Shown here one piece after another: positions 12,150-44,897 of a DNA stretch of 64,000 nucleotides. Positions within the stretch are counted from its first letter, which is position 1, and each line of letters begins with the position of its first letter. This DNA is from an uncultured Treponema sp. (GTDB lineage Bacteria > Spirochaetota > Spirochaetia > Treponematales > Treponemataceae). Under the pieces are notes generated by a model. That model worked only from the letters and a program-made list of their open reading frames with translations. It was not told the origin of the DNA and searched no databases. The DNA lies in the NCBI GenBank assembly GCA_947177175.1, contig CAMWTK010000004.1, positions 1 to 64,000 on the forward strand, given 5' to 3'. The position numbers were made by a program, and so were the translations under genes.

Positions 12150-13198
12150 CGGACGATATATTGACGGCGGTTTCCCCTGCCGACGCGCAGTATGCGGCAC
12201 GGGCGCGCGCCTGTTGGGACACGATTGCCAAGCCGCTCGGCGCGCTCGGGCTGCTGGAGGACGCGGTGTGCCGGCTGGCGGCAGTCCAGCGGACGGAACG
12301 GCCCGCGATTCCCCGCCGCGCGCTCGCGGTGTTCTGCGCGGACAACGGCATTGTGGCGGAGGGCGTGACGCAGACCGACTCGTCCGTGACGGCGGCGGTG
12401 GCGCGGAACATCTGCGCGGGTACGGCATCGGTGTGCGCCATGGCGCGCGTCGCGCGGTGCGACGTGTTCCCCGTCGATATGGGGATGCTCGCTCCCGTCG
12501 TGCACGAGAAGATGACCGACCAGCACGTCGCGCGCGGCACGCGCAACTTTCTGCATGAGGACGCGATGACGCGCGCGCAGGCGGAACAGGCGGTGCGGAC
12601 GGGCGCGCAGTTCGCGCAGGAGTTAATCGATCGGGGGTACGCGGTGATTGCCACGGGCGAAATGGGCATCGGCAACACGACCACGGCAAGCGCGGTCGCC
12701 TCGGTGCTGCTCGCGTTGCCGCCCCACGCCGTGACGGGCGCGGGCGCGGGGCTGAGCGCGGCGGGCGTGGCGCATAAAATCCGCGTGATTGAGCAGGGCA
12801 TTGCCGCGCGCGCCCCGGACGCTTCCGATCCGATTGACGTGCTTGCCAAGCTCGGCGGGTTCGACATCGCGGGCATGGCGGGCTGTATGCTCGGCGCGGC
12901 GGCGCGGCGGACGGCGGTCATCGTTGACGGGCTGATTTCGCAGGTTGCCGCGCTCGTTGCGGTGCGCCTGTGCCCGGCGGTGCGCGGCTACCTGTTTGCG
13001 AGCCACGTCGGCAGTGAACCGGCGAGCCGCCTGGTGCTTGCCGAACTGGGACTTGCCGCGCCCGTGCAGGCAGGCATGCACCTGGGCGAGGGGAGCGGCT
13101 GCATGACGCTGCTGCCGCTGCTGGACATGGCGCTCACGGTGTACGGCGGCGCGGCGACGTTCGGCGACCTGCGGATTCCGGCGTACCGTCCGCTATGA
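12146..13198 (+). CDS. cobT: Nicotinate-nucleotide--dimethylbenzimidazole phosphoribosyltransferase
   Basis: The 350-residue enzyme activates the lower-ligand base to its riboside phosphate. Family motifs include TIAKPLGALGLLE, VFCADNGIVAEGVTQTDSSVTAAVARNI, the GMGIGNTT-type loop GEMGIGNTTTASAV, and the C-terminal LGEGSGCMTLLPLLDMAL with its catalytic glutamate. The length is normal. No bluB or bza gene for making the base is in the window, so the base supply or the choice of another benzimidazole is unknown. Start and stop both overlap their neighbours. Confidence 0.93.
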   Translation: MTDDILTAVSPADAQYAARARACWDTIAKPLGALGLLEDAVCRLAAVQRTERPAIPRRALAVFCADNGIVAEGVTQTDSSVTAAVARNICAGTASVCAMARVARCDVFPVDMGMLAPVVHEKMTDQHVARGTRNFLHEDAMTRAQAEQAVRTGAQFAQELIDRGYAVIATGEMGIGNTTTASAVASVLLALPPHAVTGAGAGLSAAGVAHKIRVIEQGIAARAPDASDPIDVLAKLGGFDIAGMAGCMLGAAARRTAVIVDGLISQVAALVAVRLCPAVRGYLFASHVGSEPASRLVLAELGLAAPVQAGMHLGEGSGCMTLLPLLDMALTVYGGAATFGDLRIPAYRPL

Positions 13199-13734
13199 AC
13201 GTGCTGGTGCTCGGCGGCGCGGCAAGCGGCAAGAGCGCGTTTGCGGAGCGGCTTGCCTGCGCGCGCGCGGAACAATCGGGTGCGCCACTCGTGTACGTCG
13301 CCACGCTCGACCCCGCTTCCGGCGGCGACACGCGCGTGCGCATAGCGAAGCACCGCGCCGCCCGTGCGGGCAAGGGATTCGCCACGGTCGAATGGCAGGA
13401 CACGGACAGCGTTCCCGCCGTGCCGGACAACGCCGTCGTGCTCGTTGAGGACGGTGGCAACCTGACGGCGAATTTCCTCTATCCGTCGGGAAAGCCGCCC
13501 GCACCGTGCGCGGAACCGGCCGCCGCCGACGCGGTGACCGAAAAACTGTGCGCCCTTGCGGCGCGGTGCGCGGACTGCATCGTCGTCAGCAACGAAATCA
13601 CCCTCGGCGGCGACATTCCCGCCCCGTCGCGCCGCTACGCATTCGTGCTCGCCGCCGTGAACCGCCAGTGGGCGGCCGCCTGTGATGCTGTCTACGCCGT
13701 CGTCGCCGGCATCGCGCTCCCGCTGAAACCCTGA
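13195..13734 (+). CDS. cobU: Adenosylcobinamide kinase/guanylyltransferase
   Basis: The 179-residue protein has the P-loop LGGAASGKSAFAERL, YVATLDPASGGDTRVRIAKHRAAR with the GTP-binding histidine region, and LVEDGGNLTANFL and VVSNEITLGG motifs of CobU/CobP. It phosphorylates adenosylcobinamide and transfers GMP. In NEVGxGIVP the usual residues are replaced (NEITLGGDIPAPSR), a modest departure. A 42-bp repeat array begins 18 bp after its stop. A second, degenerate CobU-like domain lies in the fusion at 15058. Confidence 0.88.
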   Translation: MNVLVLGGAASGKSAFAERLACARAEQSGAPLVYVATLDPASGGDTRVRIAKHRAARAGKGFATVEWQDTDSVPAVPDNAVVLVEDGGNLTANFLYPSGKPPAPCAEPAAADAVTEKLCALAARCADCIVVSNEITLGGDIPAPSRRYAFVLAAVNRQWAAACDAVYAVVAGIALPLKP

Positions 13735-13751: not shown

Positions 13752-14171
13752 GAATCCGTCGCGCCCGATGTCGTCGCGCAGGTTTGTATGGACGGATTCG
13801 GTGCGCAAAATTTCATCACACAGACTTGTGCGAAGGAATTTGGTGCAACAAATATCATCATACAGACTTGCGCGAACAAATTTGGTGCGCCCGATGTCAT
13901 CACACGGAGTTGTGCGAACGAATTTGGTACGCCAAATTTCACTTTGTCGAGTGCTGGGAAAAAATTTGTCGCACCAAATTTCATTTTGTCGAGTGCTGTG
14001 GACGAATTTGGTGCGCCAAATACCACTTTGTCGAGTGCTGGGAACGAATTTGGTACACCAAATTTCACTTTGTCGAGTGCTGCGGGCGAATTTGGTGCGC
14101 AAAATACCGCTTTGTCGAGTGCTGTGGGCGAATTTGGTGTACCAAATACCGCCTTGTGAATCCGTGGGGCG
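13752..14171. repeat. Ten tandem 42-bp repeats between cobU and cobS (array A)
   Basis: Ten contiguous units of exactly 42 bp start at 13752, 13794, 13836 and so on, with no spacers. Most begin GAATTTGGT and end GGGAAC or a close variant. Units from 13920 onward contain an inverted repeat, for example AATTTGG-TACG-CCAAATT, and a second dyad CACT-TTGTCG-AGTG; the first four units are more diverged. Because 42 is divisible by three and the unit lacks stops, all three forward frames are open, giving 14-residue peptide repeats such as NEFGTPNFTLSSAG. There is no ribosome-binding site or consistent frame preference, so I consider it non-coding. Confidence 0.9.
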
Positions 14172-14258: not shown

Positions 14259-15044
14259 ATGATGGCGTTTTTGAGGGCGGTCGCGCTTGCGTTCGGTCTG
14301 TTTTCCCGTATTCCCGTGCCGCGCGTGGCATGGAGCGCGCGGAACATGCGCTTCCTGCTGTGCGCGTTCCCGCTGGTGGGCGCGGTGGTGGGCGCGGCGG
14401 TTGCGGCGGCGGTGCTGTTCGTTCGTGACGGGTTGCTCGTGTCGCTGTGCGCGGTGGTTTTTCCCGTGGCGGTGACGGGCGGCATTCATTTTGACGGGTT
14501 TATGGACACGTGCGACGCGCTGGCGAGTCATGTCGGGCGCGAGCGGAAGCTGGCGATTATGCAGGACAGCCATGCGGGGGCGTTCGCGGTGCTCGGCTGT
14601 GTGCTGTACGTGCTCGCGCAGTTCGTGCTCGCGCTGGTGCTGTGGCGGCGGACGGACGGCGCGGTCGGGCGGGAGCGGCTCGCGCCGTGGCTGTGCGTCT
14701 GCGCGTCGTTCGTGCTGTCCCGGCTGCTCAGCGCGTGTTCCGTGGCGGTGTTCCCGGCGGCAAAGGACAGCGGCCTGGTGCGGACGTTTGCCGACGCGGC
14801 GGCGCGGCGGTGTACGGCGGTGTGGAGCGTTTGTTGGTTCGTGGCGGGCGGTGCGGCGATGACCTGGCTTTTCGGTCGGTACGGCGTTGCGGCGACGGGG
14901 GCGCAGGTCGTCGTGTTCGCCGGGTATTTTTGGCTGACGCGGCGGCAGTTCGGCGGCATTACGGGCGACACGGCGGGCTGGTTCGTGCAGGTTGCCGAGC
15001 TGGCGAGCCTTGCGGCGGTGACGCTGCTGGCGGCGCGGGCATGA
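14259..15044 (+). CDS. cobS: Adenosylcobinamide-GDP ribazoletransferase
   Basis: The 261-residue integral membrane enzyme joins adenosylcobinamide-GDP to alpha-ribazole (phosphate). It has the FSRIPVP motif near the N-terminus, the catalytic GGIHFDGFMDTCDAL acidic loop near residue 75, MQDSHAGAFAV, and C-terminal RRQFGGITGDTAG; about six hydrophobic segments fit CobS/CobV. Two ATG codons are adjacent (14259, 14262); either may be used. It has its own promoter beyond the repeat array. Confidence 0.92.
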   Translation: MMAFLRAVALAFGLFSRIPVPRVAWSARNMRFLLCAFPLVGAVVGAAVAAAVLFVRDGLLVSLCAVVFPVAVTGGIHFDGFMDTCDALASHVGRERKLAIMQDSHAGAFAVLGCVLYVLAQFVLALVLWRRTDGAVGRERLAPWLCVCASFVLSRLLSACSVAVFPAAKDSGLVRTFADAAARRCTAVWSVCWFVAGGAAMTWLFGRYGVAATGAQVVVFAGYFWLTRRQFGGITGDTAGWFVQVAELASLAAVTLLAARA

Positions 15045-39381: not shown

Positions 39382-41202
39382 ATGCAGAAACGATGTTTTT
39401 TTTGTGCAGTTCTTTTTTGCGCGCTTGCCGCCGCAGGCGCGCAGGTCTCTGTCGATCCCGGCGATCCGTTCTACCTGACGGCGCAGGCGTGGGAGATACA
39501 GGGCTTGGTCTCGCCTCTGCCGCAGTTGCGCCCGTACCCGGCGAACGCGATCCGGCGCATTATCGATGAGGTGATTGCGGCGGGAACGGACGAGGACGGC
39601 GCGGTCATTCCGCAGTACGCGCGTGAGGTCGCGCGCGCGAAGGACGAGTACGAGCGCATTTTCTCGCGCCCGTACCACGTGTCGGTCGCCGTCGGCGGCA
39701 CGCTCCGCGCCGAGTCGGACATGACGAACGATGACAGCGCGCTGCGCAAGCAGGTGGAGGGCGAGGTCGCCGCGGAGGGAGACGTGGTGTTGCCGTTCAC
39801 CCGCATTGTGACGGCGGGCTATCACTTCGGCATCTGGGGGACGACCACGGAGTACGCCAACGTCGCGCAGCGGTACGTGAACCAGGGGCAGGATTCCGTG
39901 TACGACGCGGCGACCGTCGGTCCGGTGGACGGCTACCTGAACGTGAACTGCAATATCGCGCTCGGCACCGACCGCTACTATGCGACGGGCGGCATCCACC
40001 GCGTGGGCTACGGGCCGTTCCTGGGCGACGGGCTTGCGCTCAACGACACGGCATACCATGCGGCGAACGTCACGCTCAACGTGAGCCGCCCGCGCTGGGA
40101 CTTCACGACGCTGTATGAGATCATCGGCGCGACCAACAACCTGGGTGAGGATCTGAGCGACAACAAATTTCTTGCGTTCCACGCGCTCCGCCTGAACATC
40201 ACGCCGAAATTCTCGCTCTCCTATTATGAGAACCTCACGATGGGACCGCAGTCATCGTTCCTGTACGCGCTGCCCGCCCCGTACATGGTCATCCAGAACC
40301 TCGGCGGCGCGAACGCGAATTTGCAGATGGGCCTGCTCCTCGAGTACAAGCCGGTGCGGACGGTCAAGCTTGCCGCCGATATTTTCGTGGACGACTTTGA
40401 CGTGGAGGAAGTGGCGAAGCTCAACTTTGACAGCAAGATCCGGCTTGCGGGACAGGTGGGCGCGACGTATACGCCGCTCGGCTCGCCGCTTTCGCTCATG
40501 TCGTTCTCCTACCAGATCGTGCTGCCCTATGTCTACGCGCACTGGGAGTATGACTCGGAGTCGAGCGGGCACGTGTCCGGCTCGTCCTGGAACTACCAGA
40601 ACTACACGAACAACGGCATCTGCATGGGCGCGTCCATTCCGCCGGACTCGGACAAGGTGTCGTTCTTCGCGCGCTTCAACCCGATCAGCCGCCTGCAGCT
40701 TGACGTGAACGCGAATTTTATCCGCCACCAGAACGTGGCGGAGTCCTTTTCGGACGACGACAAGGTGGGCTATATGCTCGCGGAGAAGGAGCAGTACCGC
40801 ACGGACGGCTCGGTGTTCACGCACCAGCAGTTCGCGCAGGGCGAGCATGTGGACGCGGCCTGGAACCACCTGAGCTTCATGTCGGGCGCACACTCCATGC
40901 TCGTGTGCCAGTTCGGGGTGTCGGGGCAGTACACGTTCCCGCGCGTGCTGAAAGGCCGGCTGTCGCTCAAGTTGGGCTACGCCCTGGAGTACATCCACAA
41001 CGACGGCGTACAGAACGACATCTATCCGGGAAAAAGGGCTGATTATCTGAACTATTTTGATGAGAACGGTAACCTCAATCTCAATGACGACGATCGGAAG
41101 AAAGTGCTTGATGACGCGAAAGTCGCCTATGAAAAATGGGTCGGCAAGCTGACCGACAAGGTGAACCATTTCGTCACGCTGTCGGTCAAGTACACATACT
41201 AG
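39382..41202 (+). CDS. Putative outer-membrane beta-barrel protein, second of a pair
   Basis: The 606-residue protein has a signal peptide (CFFCAVLFCALAAAGA, cleaved before QVSV), the same type of helical N-terminal segment (FYLTAQAWEIQGLVSPLPQLRPYP) as its neighbour, and a long strand-rich barrel ending FVTLSVKYTY. ATG 39382 follows GAGGTG. The earlier frame extension to 39343 would bury the signal peptide and is rejected. The stop codon TAG shares CTAG with the convergent thiI stop. Confidence 0.65.
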   Translation: MQKRCFFCAVLFCALAAAGAQVSVDPGDPFYLTAQAWEIQGLVSPLPQLRPYPANAIRRIIDEVIAAGTDEDGAVIPQYAREVARAKDEYERIFSRPYHVSVAVGGTLRAESDMTNDDSALRKQVEGEVAAEGDVVLPFTRIVTAGYHFGIWGTTTEYANVAQRYVNQGQDSVYDAATVGPVDGYLNVNCNIALGTDRYYATGGIHRVGYGPFLGDGLALNDTAYHAANVTLNVSRPRWDFTTLYEIIGATNNLGEDLSDNKFLAFHALRLNITPKFSLSYYENLTMGPQSSFLYALPAPYMVIQNLGGANANLQMGLLLEYKPVRTVKLAADIFVDDFDVEEVAKLNFDSKIRLAGQVGATYTPLGSPLSLMSFSYQIVLPYVYAHWEYDSESSGHVSGSSWNYQNYTNNGICMGASIPPDSDKVSFFARFNPISRLQLDVNANFIRHQNVAESFSDDDKVGYMLAEKEQYRTDGSVFTHQQFAQGEHVDAAWNHLSFMSGAHSMLVCQFGVSGQYTFPRVLKGRLSLKLGYALEYIHNDGVQNDIYPGKRADYLNYFDENGNLNLNDDDRKKVLDDAKVAYEKWVGKLTDKVNHFVTLSVKYTY

Positions 41203-42443
41203 TCGCCCGCCGTCAGGCTTTTTCCGTTCTCCGCCGCAAGGCGCGCCGCGTTCTCGCGCGTGCCGAACTGCCCCGCAACGATGCCCGCGCAGTCGAACCG
41301 CTTGATTTCGCGCTGCTCGTATGCCGCGCGGATAAGTTCCTCCGCCTCAAGCGACGCATAAATGCGCTTCGCCTCCGCAAGGTCGGCGTGCAGGACGGGG
41401 TGGCGCGGGGAGAAGAGCACGCAGCAGTCCTCATAGGGCAAAATCGATGTCTCATACGTGCCGATACGCTGCGCCGTGGCGATGATCTCTTCCTTGTCCA
41501 TGCCGACGAGCGGGCGCAGCAGCGGGTACTGCGCCATGCTCTCGGTGACGGCGAGGTTCTGTATCGTCTGGCTCGCCACCTGGCCGAGGCTCTCGCCCGT
41601 CACGATGCAGTCCGCGCCGAGCCGCCCGGCGAGCATGTTCGCGCACTGCATCATGCACATGCGGAGCATGAGCGTCGTGAATTCCGCCGGGGCGCGCTGC
41701 TTTATCCGCAGCTGCACGTCGGTGAACGGGATTACGTTGATGTGCGTGGTCAGCCCGTAGGCGGCGAGGATTTCCGCCAGCCGCTCCACTTTCTGCTGCG
41801 CCTCCTGCGACGTGTACGGGTAGGCGTGGAAATAGCAGCATTCGATTCTCATGCCGCGGCTCATCATGCGGTAGCCCGCCACGGGGCTGTCAAGCCCGCC
41901 GCTCAGCAGGAGCAGCCCCTTGCCGCTGCACCCCACGGGCAGCCCGCGGTGTCCCCTGTTCTTGTTCGAGTAGACGAAGCAGCGGTCGCGCACCTCCACG
42001 CAGATCGTCACGTCGGGGCGGTGCACGTCAACGGCGAGGATGCCCTGCTCGCAGACAAGCGACGGCGCTTCGCGGCAGATGCCGTAGGAATCGAGGCAGA
42101 ATCCCTTGTCGCTGCGCTTCGCCTCAATCTTGAACGTCTTCGCGCCTTTCTCCCGCGCCCCGGCCGCCTCCCGCAGCACCTGTTCACGGATCGCGTCGAT
42201 GTCCTTTTCCACGACCGCCGCCTCCGACCAGCCCGTAATGCCGATTAGGTGGTCGAGCGCGAATTCCACGGCGGGCGCGCTTTCGTCCGCGCACTCCACG
42301 TAGAGCCTTCCCGCGTACAGCGACACTTTCGCCTCCACGGACTGCAAGAACCGCCGCGCGTTCCCCGTGAGCAGCCGCTCAAAATCACGGATATTCGAGC
42401 CTTTCAGCACCAGCTCGCCCAGTCTTCCCAAATATGTTCGCAT
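41199..42443 (-). CDS. thiI: tRNA 4-thiouridine synthase, ThiI without rhodanese domain
   Basis: The 414-residue protein has an N-terminal ferredoxin-like and THUMP region (1 to about 165) and a PP-loop ATPase with LLLSGGLDSPVAGYRM near residue 185, then CYFHAYPYTS and CVLFSPRHP. It adenylates U8 of tRNA for sulfur transfer. No C-terminal rhodanese domain is present, so a partner sulfur carrier is needed. ATG 42443 starts MRTYLGRLGELVLKGSN, the usual N-terminus; extension into the repeat array is rejected. The start is 6 nt after TATACT, hence leaderless. Confidence 0.92.
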   Translation of the reverse strand: MRTYLGRLGELVLKGSNIRDFERLLTGNARRFLQSVEAKVSLYAGRLYVECADESAPAVEFALDHLIGITGWSEAAVVEKDIDAIREQVLREAAGAREKGAKTFKIEAKRSDKGFCLDSYGICREAPSLVCEQGILAVDVHRPDVTICVEVRDRCFVYSNKNRGHRGLPVGCSGKGLLLLSGGLDSPVAGYRMMSRGMRIECCYFHAYPYTSQEAQQKVERLAEILAAYGLTTHINVIPFTDVQLRIKQRAPAEFTTLMLRMCMMQCANMLAGRLGADCIVTGESLGQVASQTIQNLAVTESMAQYPLLRPLVGMDKEEIIATAQRIGTYETSILPYEDCCVLFSPRHPVLHADLAEAKRIYASLEAEELIRAAYEQREIKRFDCAGIVAGQFGTRENAARLAAENGKSLTAGD

Positions 42444-42478: not shown

Positions 42479-42496
42479 TAAGTATGGGCGGGGAAC

Positions 42497-42874
42497 GAAT
42501 TTCACCCGTGCGAAATGTTGCCGCCGTTTGGGGAGAGCGAATTTCACCCGTGCGAGACGTTCCCGCCGGTTGCGGGGAACGAATTTCACCCGTGCGAAAC
42601 ATTCCCGCCGATTGGGGAGAACGAATTTCACCCCTGCGAAACGTTTCCGCCGATTGGGGAGAAAGAATTTCAGGCAGTTTCTAGCGTCCCGCCGATTGCG
42701 GAGAAGGAATTTCATGCAGTTGATGGTCTCCCGTCGATTGCGGAGAAGGAATTTCATGCAGTTGCTAGTCTCCCGCCAATTGCTGTGAAGGAATTTCAGC
42801 CTGTTTCTAGCGTTCCGTCAATTGCGGGCATCGAATCTCACCCCGTTTCCTGTCTCCCGCCGTTTGCGGGGAAG
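42497..42874. repeat. Nine tandem 42-bp repeats upstream of thiI and the acyl-CoA synthetase (array B)
   Basis: Nine contiguous 42-bp units start at 42497, 42539, 42581 and so on. Units begin GAATTTCA; the first four continue CCCGTGCGAAA, later ones CAGTT or similar, and several contain the hairpin CCCGC-N5-GCGGG. Units end GGGGAAC, GGAGAAG or similar. Frames on both strands are open, giving 14-residue peptides such as NEFHPCETFPPIGE, but no start signal or consistent codon bias supports a gene. The array fills most of the gap between two divergent genes and shares unit length and junction with array A. Confidence 0.9.
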
Positions 42875-42938: not shown

Positions 42939-44897
42939 ATGATTGACGAGAATGCTATGGACAAGTCGCTCGGCGCGACGCTCCCGATTTTGCTGAGGAA
43001 TAAGGTTTCCGAGATCCCGAACTATACGTTGCAGGCGGAAAAGAACAAGAGCGGCGTGTTCGTGCGGTACAGCTATTCGCAGGTGTACCAGCGCGTGATC
43101 GAGCTTGCCGCGTCGCTCAGGAAGCTGGGCGTGAAGAAGGGCGACCACGTGGGGCTGATCTCCGACAACCGGCGCGAATGGCTCGTGACGGACTACGCGC
43201 TCCTTTCGCTCGGCGCGGCGGACGTGCCGCGCGGGTGCGATTCGATGGGCGTGGAGATCCGCTTCATTCTGGGCTACGCGGAATGCGCGGTCAGTTTCTT
43301 CGAGAACGCCCGCCAGCTGCAGAAAGTGCTGGAGGACGTGTCGGAGGTGCCGCTGCTGAAGACGGCGATCCTGTACGAGCATCCCGACGAGAAGACCGTG
43401 CGGCAGGCGAACGAGGCGGGAATCGAGGTCATCAACTATTCGCTGTTGGAGAGCGAGGGCACGGCGGTCACCCGCGAAGAGTGGCTTGCTATCGAGCGCG
43501 GCATGGACGACGTGAAGCCGGACGACGTGGCGACGATTATCTTTACGTCGGGGACGACGGGCGTGCCCAAGGGCGTGCAGCTGACGCACGACAACTACAT
43601 CGCGCAGTGCGAGGTGGCGCATACCGTGCTCGGGCTGATGCAGCCGGGCGACATCTGGCTGACCGTCCTGCCGATCTGGCACAGCTTTGAGCGGGCGTTC
43701 TGCTATATGGTCATCGGGCTGAAGGGCGGCTTTGCCTACTCAAAGCCGATCGCGTCCGTCATGTTGCAGGACATGGCGCTCGTGCAGCCGCAGTGGATGA
43801 ACGGCGTGCCGCGCCTGTGGGAGGCGGTGGCGCAGGGGCTGCTGCGCGAGGTGAAGAAGCAGGATGCGTTGCAGAAGACCGTGTTCTACCAGTTCGTCGC
43901 CGTGGGCAAGCTCTACTACAAGTTCAAGGAGCGGGTGTGCGGGCTGCGCTGCCGGTACCGCTGGTATCCGCGCGTGCTCGACGTTATCGTCGGCATCATT
44001 CCGTTCAGCCTGCTGTGGCCGTTCCATAAGCTGGGCGAGCTGGTGGTGTACAAGAAAGTCCTCGCCAAGTTCGGCGGGAAATTCCGCGCGGCGATCAGCG
44101 GCGGCGGCGCGTTGCAGCCGGAGACCGAGGCGTTCTACCACGCGGTCGGCTTCAAGCTGCTTGAGGGCTACGGGATGACCGAGACGGCGCCCGTCATTTC
44201 CGTGCGCAGCTCAAAGAAGCCGCGCTCGAACAACGTGGGGTGGGTGTTCCCCAGCCTTGACGTGAAGATCGTGGCGGAAAAGGACGGGCAGATTGCCGAC
44301 GGCGAGCCGCTCAAGCCGGGCAAGCGCGGGCTGATTTTGGTCAGGGGGCGGCAGGTGATGAAAGGTTACTACAAGCGCGACGACCTGACGGCGGAGATCA
44401 TCGACAAGGACGGCTGGCTCAACACGGGCGACCTGGGCATGCTCAGCTGCGACGAGGAGCTGAAGATCGTCGGGCGCGCGAAAGACACGATCGTCCTGCT
44501 CGGCGGCGAGAACATCGAGCCGCAGGTAATCGAGAAGGCGGTGAACGCTTCCCCGTACATCGAGCGCACGGTGGTGGTGGGGCAGGACAAGAAATACATC
44601 GCCGCGCTCATCGTCCCCGACCAGCAGAACGTGCTCGCCTACGCGGAGGAGAACAATATCCTGTACGACAACTACGAGGAGCTGCTCAGGACGAGCGAGA
44701 TCCAGAACCTGTTCCGCACGGAGATCGACGCGCTGGACAACGCGAAGACGGGTTTCCGCACCTGCGAGCGCATCTCAAAGTTCGTGCTGCTGACCAAGCC
44801 GTTCGAGATCGGCGTGGAGATCAACGCGAAGCAGGAGCTGATGCGCCACAAAATCGCCAAGCTGTACAAAAAAGAATGCAACGCGCTGTTCGACTAG
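42939..44897 (+). CDS. Long-chain acyl-CoA synthetase (AMP-forming)
   Basis: The 652-residue ANL-superfamily enzyme activates fatty acids with ATP and CoA. The AMP-binding P-loop IIFTSGTTGVPKGV lies near residue 202, followed by WLTVLPIWHSFERAF, the adenine-binding LEGYGMTETAPVISV near 405, WLNTGDLG and GRAKDTIVLLGGENIEP. The length and the VPRGCDSMG region suit FadD-type ligases. ATG 42939 is preferred from the leaderless promoter; an in-frame ATG at 42957 is the alternative. Confidence 0.9.
   Translation: MIDENAMDKSLGATLPILLRNKVSEIPNYTLQAEKNKSGVFVRYSYSQVYQRVIELAASLRKLGVKKGDHVGLISDNRREWLVTDYALLSLGAADVPRGCDSMGVEIRFILGYAECAVSFFENARQLQKVLEDVSEVPLLKTAILYEHPDEKTVRQANEAGIEVINYSLLESEGTAVTREEWLAIERGMDDVKPDDVATIIFTSGTTGVPKGVQLTHDNYIAQCEVAHTVLGLMQPGDIWLTVLPIWHSFERAFCYMVIGLKGGFAYSKPIASVMLQDMALVQPQWMNGVPRLWEAVAQGLLREVKKQDALQKTVFYQFVAVGKLYYKFKERVCGLRCRYRWYPRVLDVIVGIIPFSLLWPFHKLGELVVYKKVLAKFGGKFRAAISGGGALQPETEAFYHAVGFKLLEGYGMTETAPVISVRSSKKPRSNNVGWVFPSLDVKIVAEKDGQIADGEPLKPGKRGLILVRGRQVMKGYYKRDDLTAEIIDKDGWLNTGDLGMLSCDEELKIVGRAKDTIVLLGGENIEPQVIEKAVNASPYIERTVVVGQDKKYIAALIVPDQQNVLAYAEENNILYDNYEELLRTSEIQNLFRTEIDALDNAKTGFRTCERISKFVLLTKPFEIGVEINAKQELMRHKIAKLYKKECNALFD

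Follow-up and report, generated by a model that had tools for sequence, protein, structure and literature searches.

Tandem arrays of 40-42-bp units and DUF6261 genes form one system in Treponema and Bacteroidetes

Introduction

Ribbon-helix-helix (RHH) repressors such as Arc, MetJ, CopG and ParG read DNA with a short extended N-terminal segment that precedes a helix. Their operators are short dyads, set in tandem in phase with the DNA helix and often located upstream of the repressor's own gene. The system described here consists of tandem arrays and genes for DUF6261 proteins (PF19775), and it may resemble these repressors in two ways: DUF6261 is modelled with an extended N-terminal segment before a helix, which would read DNA, and phased dyads lie upstream of its own gene. 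However, no match of DUF6261 to an RHH profile or solved structure was detected. Its proteins are acidic and about 230 residues long, they form large families in which distinct array types number in the dozens, and an array can contain as many as about 20 units, each of 42 bp.

Other described systems share some of these features. REP/BIME repeats and their RAYT (TnpA-REP) proteins also combine a multi-copy protein gene with adjoining palindromic repeats and many repeats elsewhere in the genome, but the DUF6261 repeats run head-to-tail at a fixed 41-42 bp, a Y1 (HUH) transposase was not found, and the arrays of one genome are unrelated in sequence between copies. Iterons and parS/parC-type centromere arrays are likewise tandem, helix-phased sites adjoining the gene of a presumed binding protein, whereas the DUF6261 arrays are chromosomal and number dozens of sites per genome, each with a different sequence. 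CRISPR arrays have a regular period and an adjoining protein family, but the units described here are contiguous and related over their full length, with no alternation of repeat and spacer, and Cas genes were not noticed. Finally, bacterial VNTRs or minisatellites are intergenic tandem repeats of variable copy number; unlike them, the DUF6261 arrays are defined by period, dyads and partner gene, not by sequence.

We found no match in Pfam, Rfam, the PDB or the literature that explains the DUF6261-array system, and a search of open-licence papers found neither the arrays nor a function of DUF6261 described. To our knowledge, there is no described family in which arrays are defined by period, symmetry and partner gene while their sequence is free, and we therefore rate the architecture as new in kind. 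If DUF6261 turns out to be an ordinary operator-binding repressor, the architecture would instead be a novel form within a known kind.

Results

Arrays A and B in the window

We analysed a window of 64,000 nucleotides from an uncultured Treponema sp. (contig CAMWTK010000004.1, positions 1 to 64,000). The features that concern us are the following.

13195..13734, plus strand: cobU (PF02283, 4.9e-28), left of array A
13752..14157, plus strand: array A, nine complete 42-bp units plus part of a tenth; an orphan array between cobU and cobS
14259..15044, plus strand: cobS (PF02654, 7.2e-48), starting about 100 bp after array A
41199..42443, minus strand: thiI (PF02568, E=1.1e-72), starting 54 bp from array B
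42491..42496, plus strand: the sequence GGGAAC before unit 1 of array B
42497..42874, plus strand: array B, nine 42-bp units; an orphan array (DUF6261 not adjacent) that fills a divergent promoter region
42939..44897, plus strand: long-chain acyl-CoA synthetase (AMP-binding; PF00501, E=1e-74), starting 65 bp past array B

These coordinates and Pfam matches agree with the earlier note on this DNA, which had described array B as nine units of exactly 42 bp between divergent thiI and acyl-CoA synthetase genes. The units start at 42497, 42539, 42581, 42623, 42665, 42707, 42749, 42791 and 42833, the last base is 42874, and the 42-bp register is unbroken in all nine. Units 1-4 are of one subtype (CACCCGTGCGAAACGTTCCCGCC) and units 5-9 of another (CAGGCAGTTTCTAGCGTCCCGCC). 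The CCCGC-N5-GCGGG hairpins that had been ascribed to array B are present but imperfect; the dyad arms score 7/7 and 6/7 in array A, and 6/7 and 5/7 in array B. Both arrays have a period of 40-42 bp in at least three copies. The window has 19 occurrences of GGGAACGAATTT with up to two mismatches, where chance predicts 5.6; none of 100 shuffles reached 19. The earlier note had also proposed that the two arrays share a junction, GGGAAC followed by GAATTT. This junction is exact at only two places in array B and one in array A; its stable part is GAATTT, which starts eight of the nine units of array B. Elsewhere in the window, at 1479-1579, a 22-23-bp repeat (TAAAGTATATACATTACGGCGC) is present in roughly four copies that do not match perfectly.

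Further arrays in the genome and in relatives

A genome-wide scan for the 42-bp period found GAATTT-N36-GAATTT 57 times in the source genome (2.38 Mb, 111 contigs), compared with once for a reversed-pattern control. These occurrences fall in about a dozen arrays, about ten of them in addition to A and B. Among 200 genomes of the same genus, six had at least two matches to a three-fold 42-bp pattern, and the controls were zero in all. When a four-fold pattern was run against 84,980 species genomes, intergenic 21/42-bp arrays of Bacteroidetes, mostly termite-gut, were among the matches listed. Arrays A and B belong to one repeat family and are not chance tandem duplications, as had been suggested; no named family was found for them.

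The site of array B is occupied in two relatives. In G082 it holds 14 units, and in G133 it holds 42-bp units of other sequence, one of which has a P-L-T-type core (CCGAGGCCTCGG). G082 carries further GAATTT arrays of another layout (G082:C23:21175-21348 and 43679-43936), where CCATGTGCAGAATTTGATTCTGCACATGG is one long palindrome spanning the 42-bp unit.

Most DUF6261 loci examined have an array upstream

The gene found beside arrays (MKEIQTVYVGGMNNAAHF...) encodes DUF6261 (L066:2999-3727, E=3.4e-46, 157 bits against a cut-off of 27), and all arrays examined beside it lie directly upstream. The source genome has 17 reported DUF6261 matches, none of them on the contig of the window. As neither array A nor array B adjoins a DUF6261 copy, this link is invisible from the window alone. 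DUF6261 was found in 21 of 200 genomes of the genus, including all six array genomes (Fisher p=7e-7), and in 10 of 12 genomes picked for their arrays (up to 30 copies), compared with 5 of 295 further genomes sampled from the Bacteroidota (p=1e-13).

The association is directional. We compared 73 distinct DUF6261 loci that had 400 bp or more of upstream sequence; most came from genomes that had been selected for arrays. An array with a 40-42-bp period lies within 1 kb upstream of 63 of them, whereas 3 of 75 loci have one downstream (p=6e-27). The period is 42 bp in 40 of the 63, 41 bp in 21 and 40 bp in two. Ten loci came from genus genomes that were not array-selected: seven have arrays (L224-L227, L229, L232 and L233), L223 and L231 have none, and L228 has too little upstream sequence. 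In randomly drawn Bacteroidota, two of eight DUF6261 loci have a 41-bp array. DUF6261 can therefore exist without an array, since one is absent upstream at 10 of the 73 loci and at six of the eight random ones. Several DUF6261 copies of one Tannerellaceae genome have the array downstream instead. In a cultured Prevotella nigrescens, FDAARGOS_1486, the gene for the DUF6261 protein WP_004367630.1 is preceded by a 41-bp array of 3.6 copies (L386:2700-2848), and one DUF6261 copy lies on a 568-kb replicon of this species listed as a plasmid. We conclude that the arrays and DUF6261 are one system.

Arrays beside other DUF6261 copies have neither GGGAAC nor GAATTT (examples are TCCGAGGCCTCCGA, ACTTGAAGTG and AATCATTATGATT). 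The idea of a fixed boundary with a variable core, which the window alone had suggested, thus falls, and the GAATTT boundary marks one sub-family only.

We made several observations on the surroundings of these loci. Genes with 69-bp repeats (LRR_5/BspA-like) often follow DUF6261 (L213, L214, L249, L250, L284, L286 and others); by motif count, such repeats lie downstream at 18 of 65 loci compared with 0 of 61 window stretches. Ankyrin-type 99-bp repeats lie downstream at L236 and L245. A hairpin-rich element (CTTGGGG..CCCCAAGACCCC and TTCCGCTTGGAAGCGG..) caps the far end of the array at L061, L063, L066, L069, L249, L250, L251 and L254; it occurs with both 42-bp and 41-bp arrays, and 60-bp stretches of it match by as much as 98% from one locus to another. 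At L318 (Tannerellaceae), positions 69-616 contain a further 42-bp tandem family (CGTCATTGCGAACAAAGTGACGCAATCCGAAACAGC..) next to the DUF6261 array; it recalls a dispersed CGTCATTGCGAG repeat of other bacteria. In Prevotella nigrescens, 3.3 copies of a 120-bp repeat, 98% identical, occupy 2165-2560 of L386, immediately upstream of the 41-bp array and beside a GxxExxY gene. A phage or plasmid origin was considered and rejected: array B searched against phages gave no match, and the DUF6261 matches there were an unverified 4-kb 'bacteriophage' scaffold and the Prevotella replicon.

Period, dyads and rhythm are fixed

Unit sequences are often unrelated between loci: after removal of redundancy, 53 of 75 array consensuses remain, with few 7-mers in common. 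What is fixed across Treponema and Bacteroidetes is the 41-42-bp period, the dyads, a 10.4-bp rhythm and the adjoining DUF6261 gene. The period tracks the protein clade, being 42 bp at 46 of 47 clade-1 loci and 40-41 bp at 37 of 38 clade-2 loci (p=9e-22). The units are palindromic, with a best arm of at least 6/7 in 81% of units compared with 30% of shuffled ones. When both partners of a dyad pair deviate from the consensus, they are complementary in 65 of 131 cases, compared with 16-26% for shifted partners.

Purines and pyrimidines alternate in four cycles per unit, or every 10.4 bp (z=10 over 53 non-redundant units). The rhythm is present in both groups (z 6.7 in Treponema and 7.1 in Bacteroidetes) and stands out against a palindrome-preserving shuffle (z 8.8). 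Purine power is 2.38 in units compared with 1.16 in intergenic control 42-mers, from which the rhythm is absent, and autocorrelation inside units peaks at lags 10, 20-21 and 31. Only the purine and G/T signals are raised at 10.4 bp. Phased A/T bending was rejected as a common signal, as A/T power at this period is not raised (z 0.9).

The DUF6261 protein

DUF6261 proteins have a median pI of 5.4. The AlphaFold2 model of a clade 1 protein is all-helical (mean pLDDT 91), with residues 1-13 extended and followed by the first helix; clade 2 gives a similar model (mean pLDDT 86). Profile searches with whole proteins and N-terminal fragments found no known DNA-binding domain. The N-terminal fragments gave no RHH match in Pfam or PDB sequences; an RHH strand forms in the dimer only. 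A fold search found nothing but generic helical bundles, the best with Z 10 and rmsd 5.7; one of them was an S23/four-helix-bundle protein (90 residues, Z 8.9). For helical models such hits mean little, and the lack of a match is equally uninformative. The modelled order of extended segment, helix and helix may recall RHH proteins, as a lead only. Some Bacteroidetes have DUF6261 proteins of 307-316 residues (L284, L266, L267, L274, L275 and L290). Their extra C-terminal segment (DFTVTYKNN..GTATLVIHGKGAYKG..VTF.I) looks like an Ig-like domain of surface proteins, and a signal peptide is not apparent.

The N-terminal arm covaries with the array

In clade 1, a variable arm sits between conserved MKEIQ and MNNAAHF, and its residues vary in step with the array. 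The arm (L/I)PLT goes with TCCGAGGCCTCCGA units at 14 of 14 loci, Y-x-G-G with GAATTTGGTGCACC units at 12 of 12, FLGN with ACTTGAAGTG units at 9 of 9, LVN with TCAAATCGCATTTGA units at 3 of 3, and TH with GTTGACGG units at 2 of 2. SH goes with GAAATTCGTTCCCGC units at 3 of 4; the exception is L063, which has a distal array of the Y-x-G-G type and a short proximal array of the SH type.

The lists of arm motifs were drawn up post hoc, so three further tests were run without them. A partial Mantel test of array against arm, given core and leader (the DNA from the array to the start codon), gave a correlation of 0.39 with p=0.0005, which is as low as the test can go. Between pairs matched for core identity, array similarity is 0.37-0.54 when the arm is the same and 0.11-0.12 otherwise. 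In a scan of 177 testable columns of clade 1, residues 6-11 alone track the array (z 9-24, next best 4.4), residue 8 most strongly, and in 204 columns of clade 2, residues 5-7 rank first. At 39 of 44 loci the locus with the most similar array also shares the arm, whereas permutation gave a mean rate of 0.19 and a maximum of 0.48; all five misses involve L063. The same-arm rate is 0.43 when the nearest neighbour is taken by core and 0.61 when it is taken by leader.

The source genome encodes both of the arm types that concern the window, Y-x-G-G in L061, L066 and L069, and SH in L063. Unit similarity places both orphan arrays in the DUF6261-associated family, clearly for array A and more weakly for array B. 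For array A, all nine full units resemble arrays that belong to Y-x-G-G-arm copies of DUF6261. Seven of the nine units of array B are closest to the arrays of SH-arm copies, several only weakly so; array B may belong to the SH class, with modest scores.

Discussion

We think it probable, on balance, that DUF6261 proteins bind the arrays, that each reads its own array through its N-terminal arm, and that orphan arrays are bound in trans and modulate promoters. Arm-mediated recognition of DNA is the best-supported mechanism, as judged from covariation and anatomy, although the protein is acidic and no DNA-binding domain was detected in it. We propose that the arrays are DNA scaffolds recognized by DUF6261 proteins, and that the arm (residues 6-11) of each protein would contact DNA directly and read the dyad-symmetric element repeated in its own upstream array. 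Each unit would span four helical turns (41 or 42 bp, depending on the protein clade), with dyads phased to the DNA helix and perhaps one protein (or dimer) per turn. Because the dyads are helix-phased, many DUF6261 copies could line up on one face of the DNA, and a change in copy number would leave the phase intact. As each paralogue has its own array sequence, the family would be a set of largely separate protein-array pairs.

Covariation of arm and array could also arise by linkage only. On this view the array, the leader and the first eleven codons move as a block while gene conversion evens out the remainder of DUF6261; the arm would have no part in reading DNA, and the arrays would serve some other host protein. 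We regard this as unlikely, but as an explanation to be taken seriously. The leader also tracks array type, moderately (z 1-8.8), so part of the covariation could be linkage; the signal stops sharply, with background reached by codon 12, and the nearest leader neighbour is in the same arm class in 61% of cases. However, at the nucleotide level the signal peaks at the amino-acid-changing sites of codons 6-11 (z 8-17), whereas in codons 2-5, which separate the leader from the arm, third positions are more weakly associated (z 0.7-4.8). The correlation between arm similarity and leader similarity is close to zero (0.05), columns of equal variability elsewhere (26, 43, 91 and 184) carry no array signal, and clade 2 independently yields the same part of the arm. 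Linkage probably contributes to the covariation, yet it would not account well for the peak at the arm.

A mobile or self-spreading cassette is a more doubtful explanation. Array and DUF6261 would multiply together, the arrays would serve as ends or as a substrate for recombination, and orphans A and B would be remnants. Up to 30 copies per genome, a patchy distribution over two phyla, the copy on the Prevotella nigrescens replicon listed as a plasmid and the common occurrence of orphan arrays are all in keeping with this. On the other hand, DUF6261 has no transposase, integrase or nuclease signature (in Pfam only DUF6261 itself is above the cut-off, and the model is all-helical). Close paralogues have unrelated arrays, which would not be expected if they were copies of a single element, and the site of array B is kept in two relatives although the units differ.

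It is very improbable that the arrays act as RNA, with one or two hairpins per unit in the transcript. Palindromic units with compensatory changes would suit such a role, but G.T and A.C mismatches of the dyads are equally frequent in the gene sense (199 and 190), with no strand bias, which favours double-stranded DNA over a transcript. Moreover, an exact four-turn period with a 10.4-bp rhythm has no obvious meaning for RNA, and Rfam 15 gave no match in the window at the gathering threshold. Neutral minisatellites that grow by replication slippage are still harder to credit. Unit number does differ between close relatives at one site (9 in the source genome and 14 in G082), but the 40-42-bp period is locked over unrelated sequences in two phyla, the arrays associate with DUF6261 upstream at 63 of 73 loci, and they covary with the arm. 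Least credible of all is a coding role as 14-residue protein repeats (EFxxx...): although 42 is divisible by three and most arrays of the source genome are free of stops in the GAA-TTT frame, this is excluded because many arrays have a 41-bp period (21 of the 63 upstream arrays and 34 of 85 clade-assigned loci), and there are stops in the GAA-TTT frame of the G021 and G122 arrays.

Arm-mediated recognition, the mechanism that we prefer, has consequences for the window. Arrays A (Y-x-G-G class) and B (SH class) would be bound in trans by paralogues encoded elsewhere. Most likely they modulate the promoters of thiI, acyl-CoA synthetase and cobS, although this is the least certain step of our model. 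An effect on promoters is the simplest reading because array B fills the divergent gap, with 54 and 65 bp to the two gene starts, and array A ends about 100 bp before cobS.

DUF6261 reaches up to 30 copies in some gut genomes, and these results offer an initial clue to its function. The arrays are unusual in that their sequence is free while length, symmetry and helical phase are constrained, and the dozens of paralogue-array pairs are a natural data set for testing a protein-DNA recognition code. The positions upstream of metabolic genes (thiI, cobS and acyl-CoA synthetase) suggest a genome-wide role. More tentatively, and with some doubt, we suggest that these may be chromosomal nucleoprotein scaffolds found across phyla, with dozens of DUF6261-array pairs per genome, in which the geometry of the protein sets the period and a hypervariable arm of six residues constitutes a recognition code. 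If true, this would be a previously unrecognised cross-phylum class of scaffolds with a readable residue-to-DNA code.
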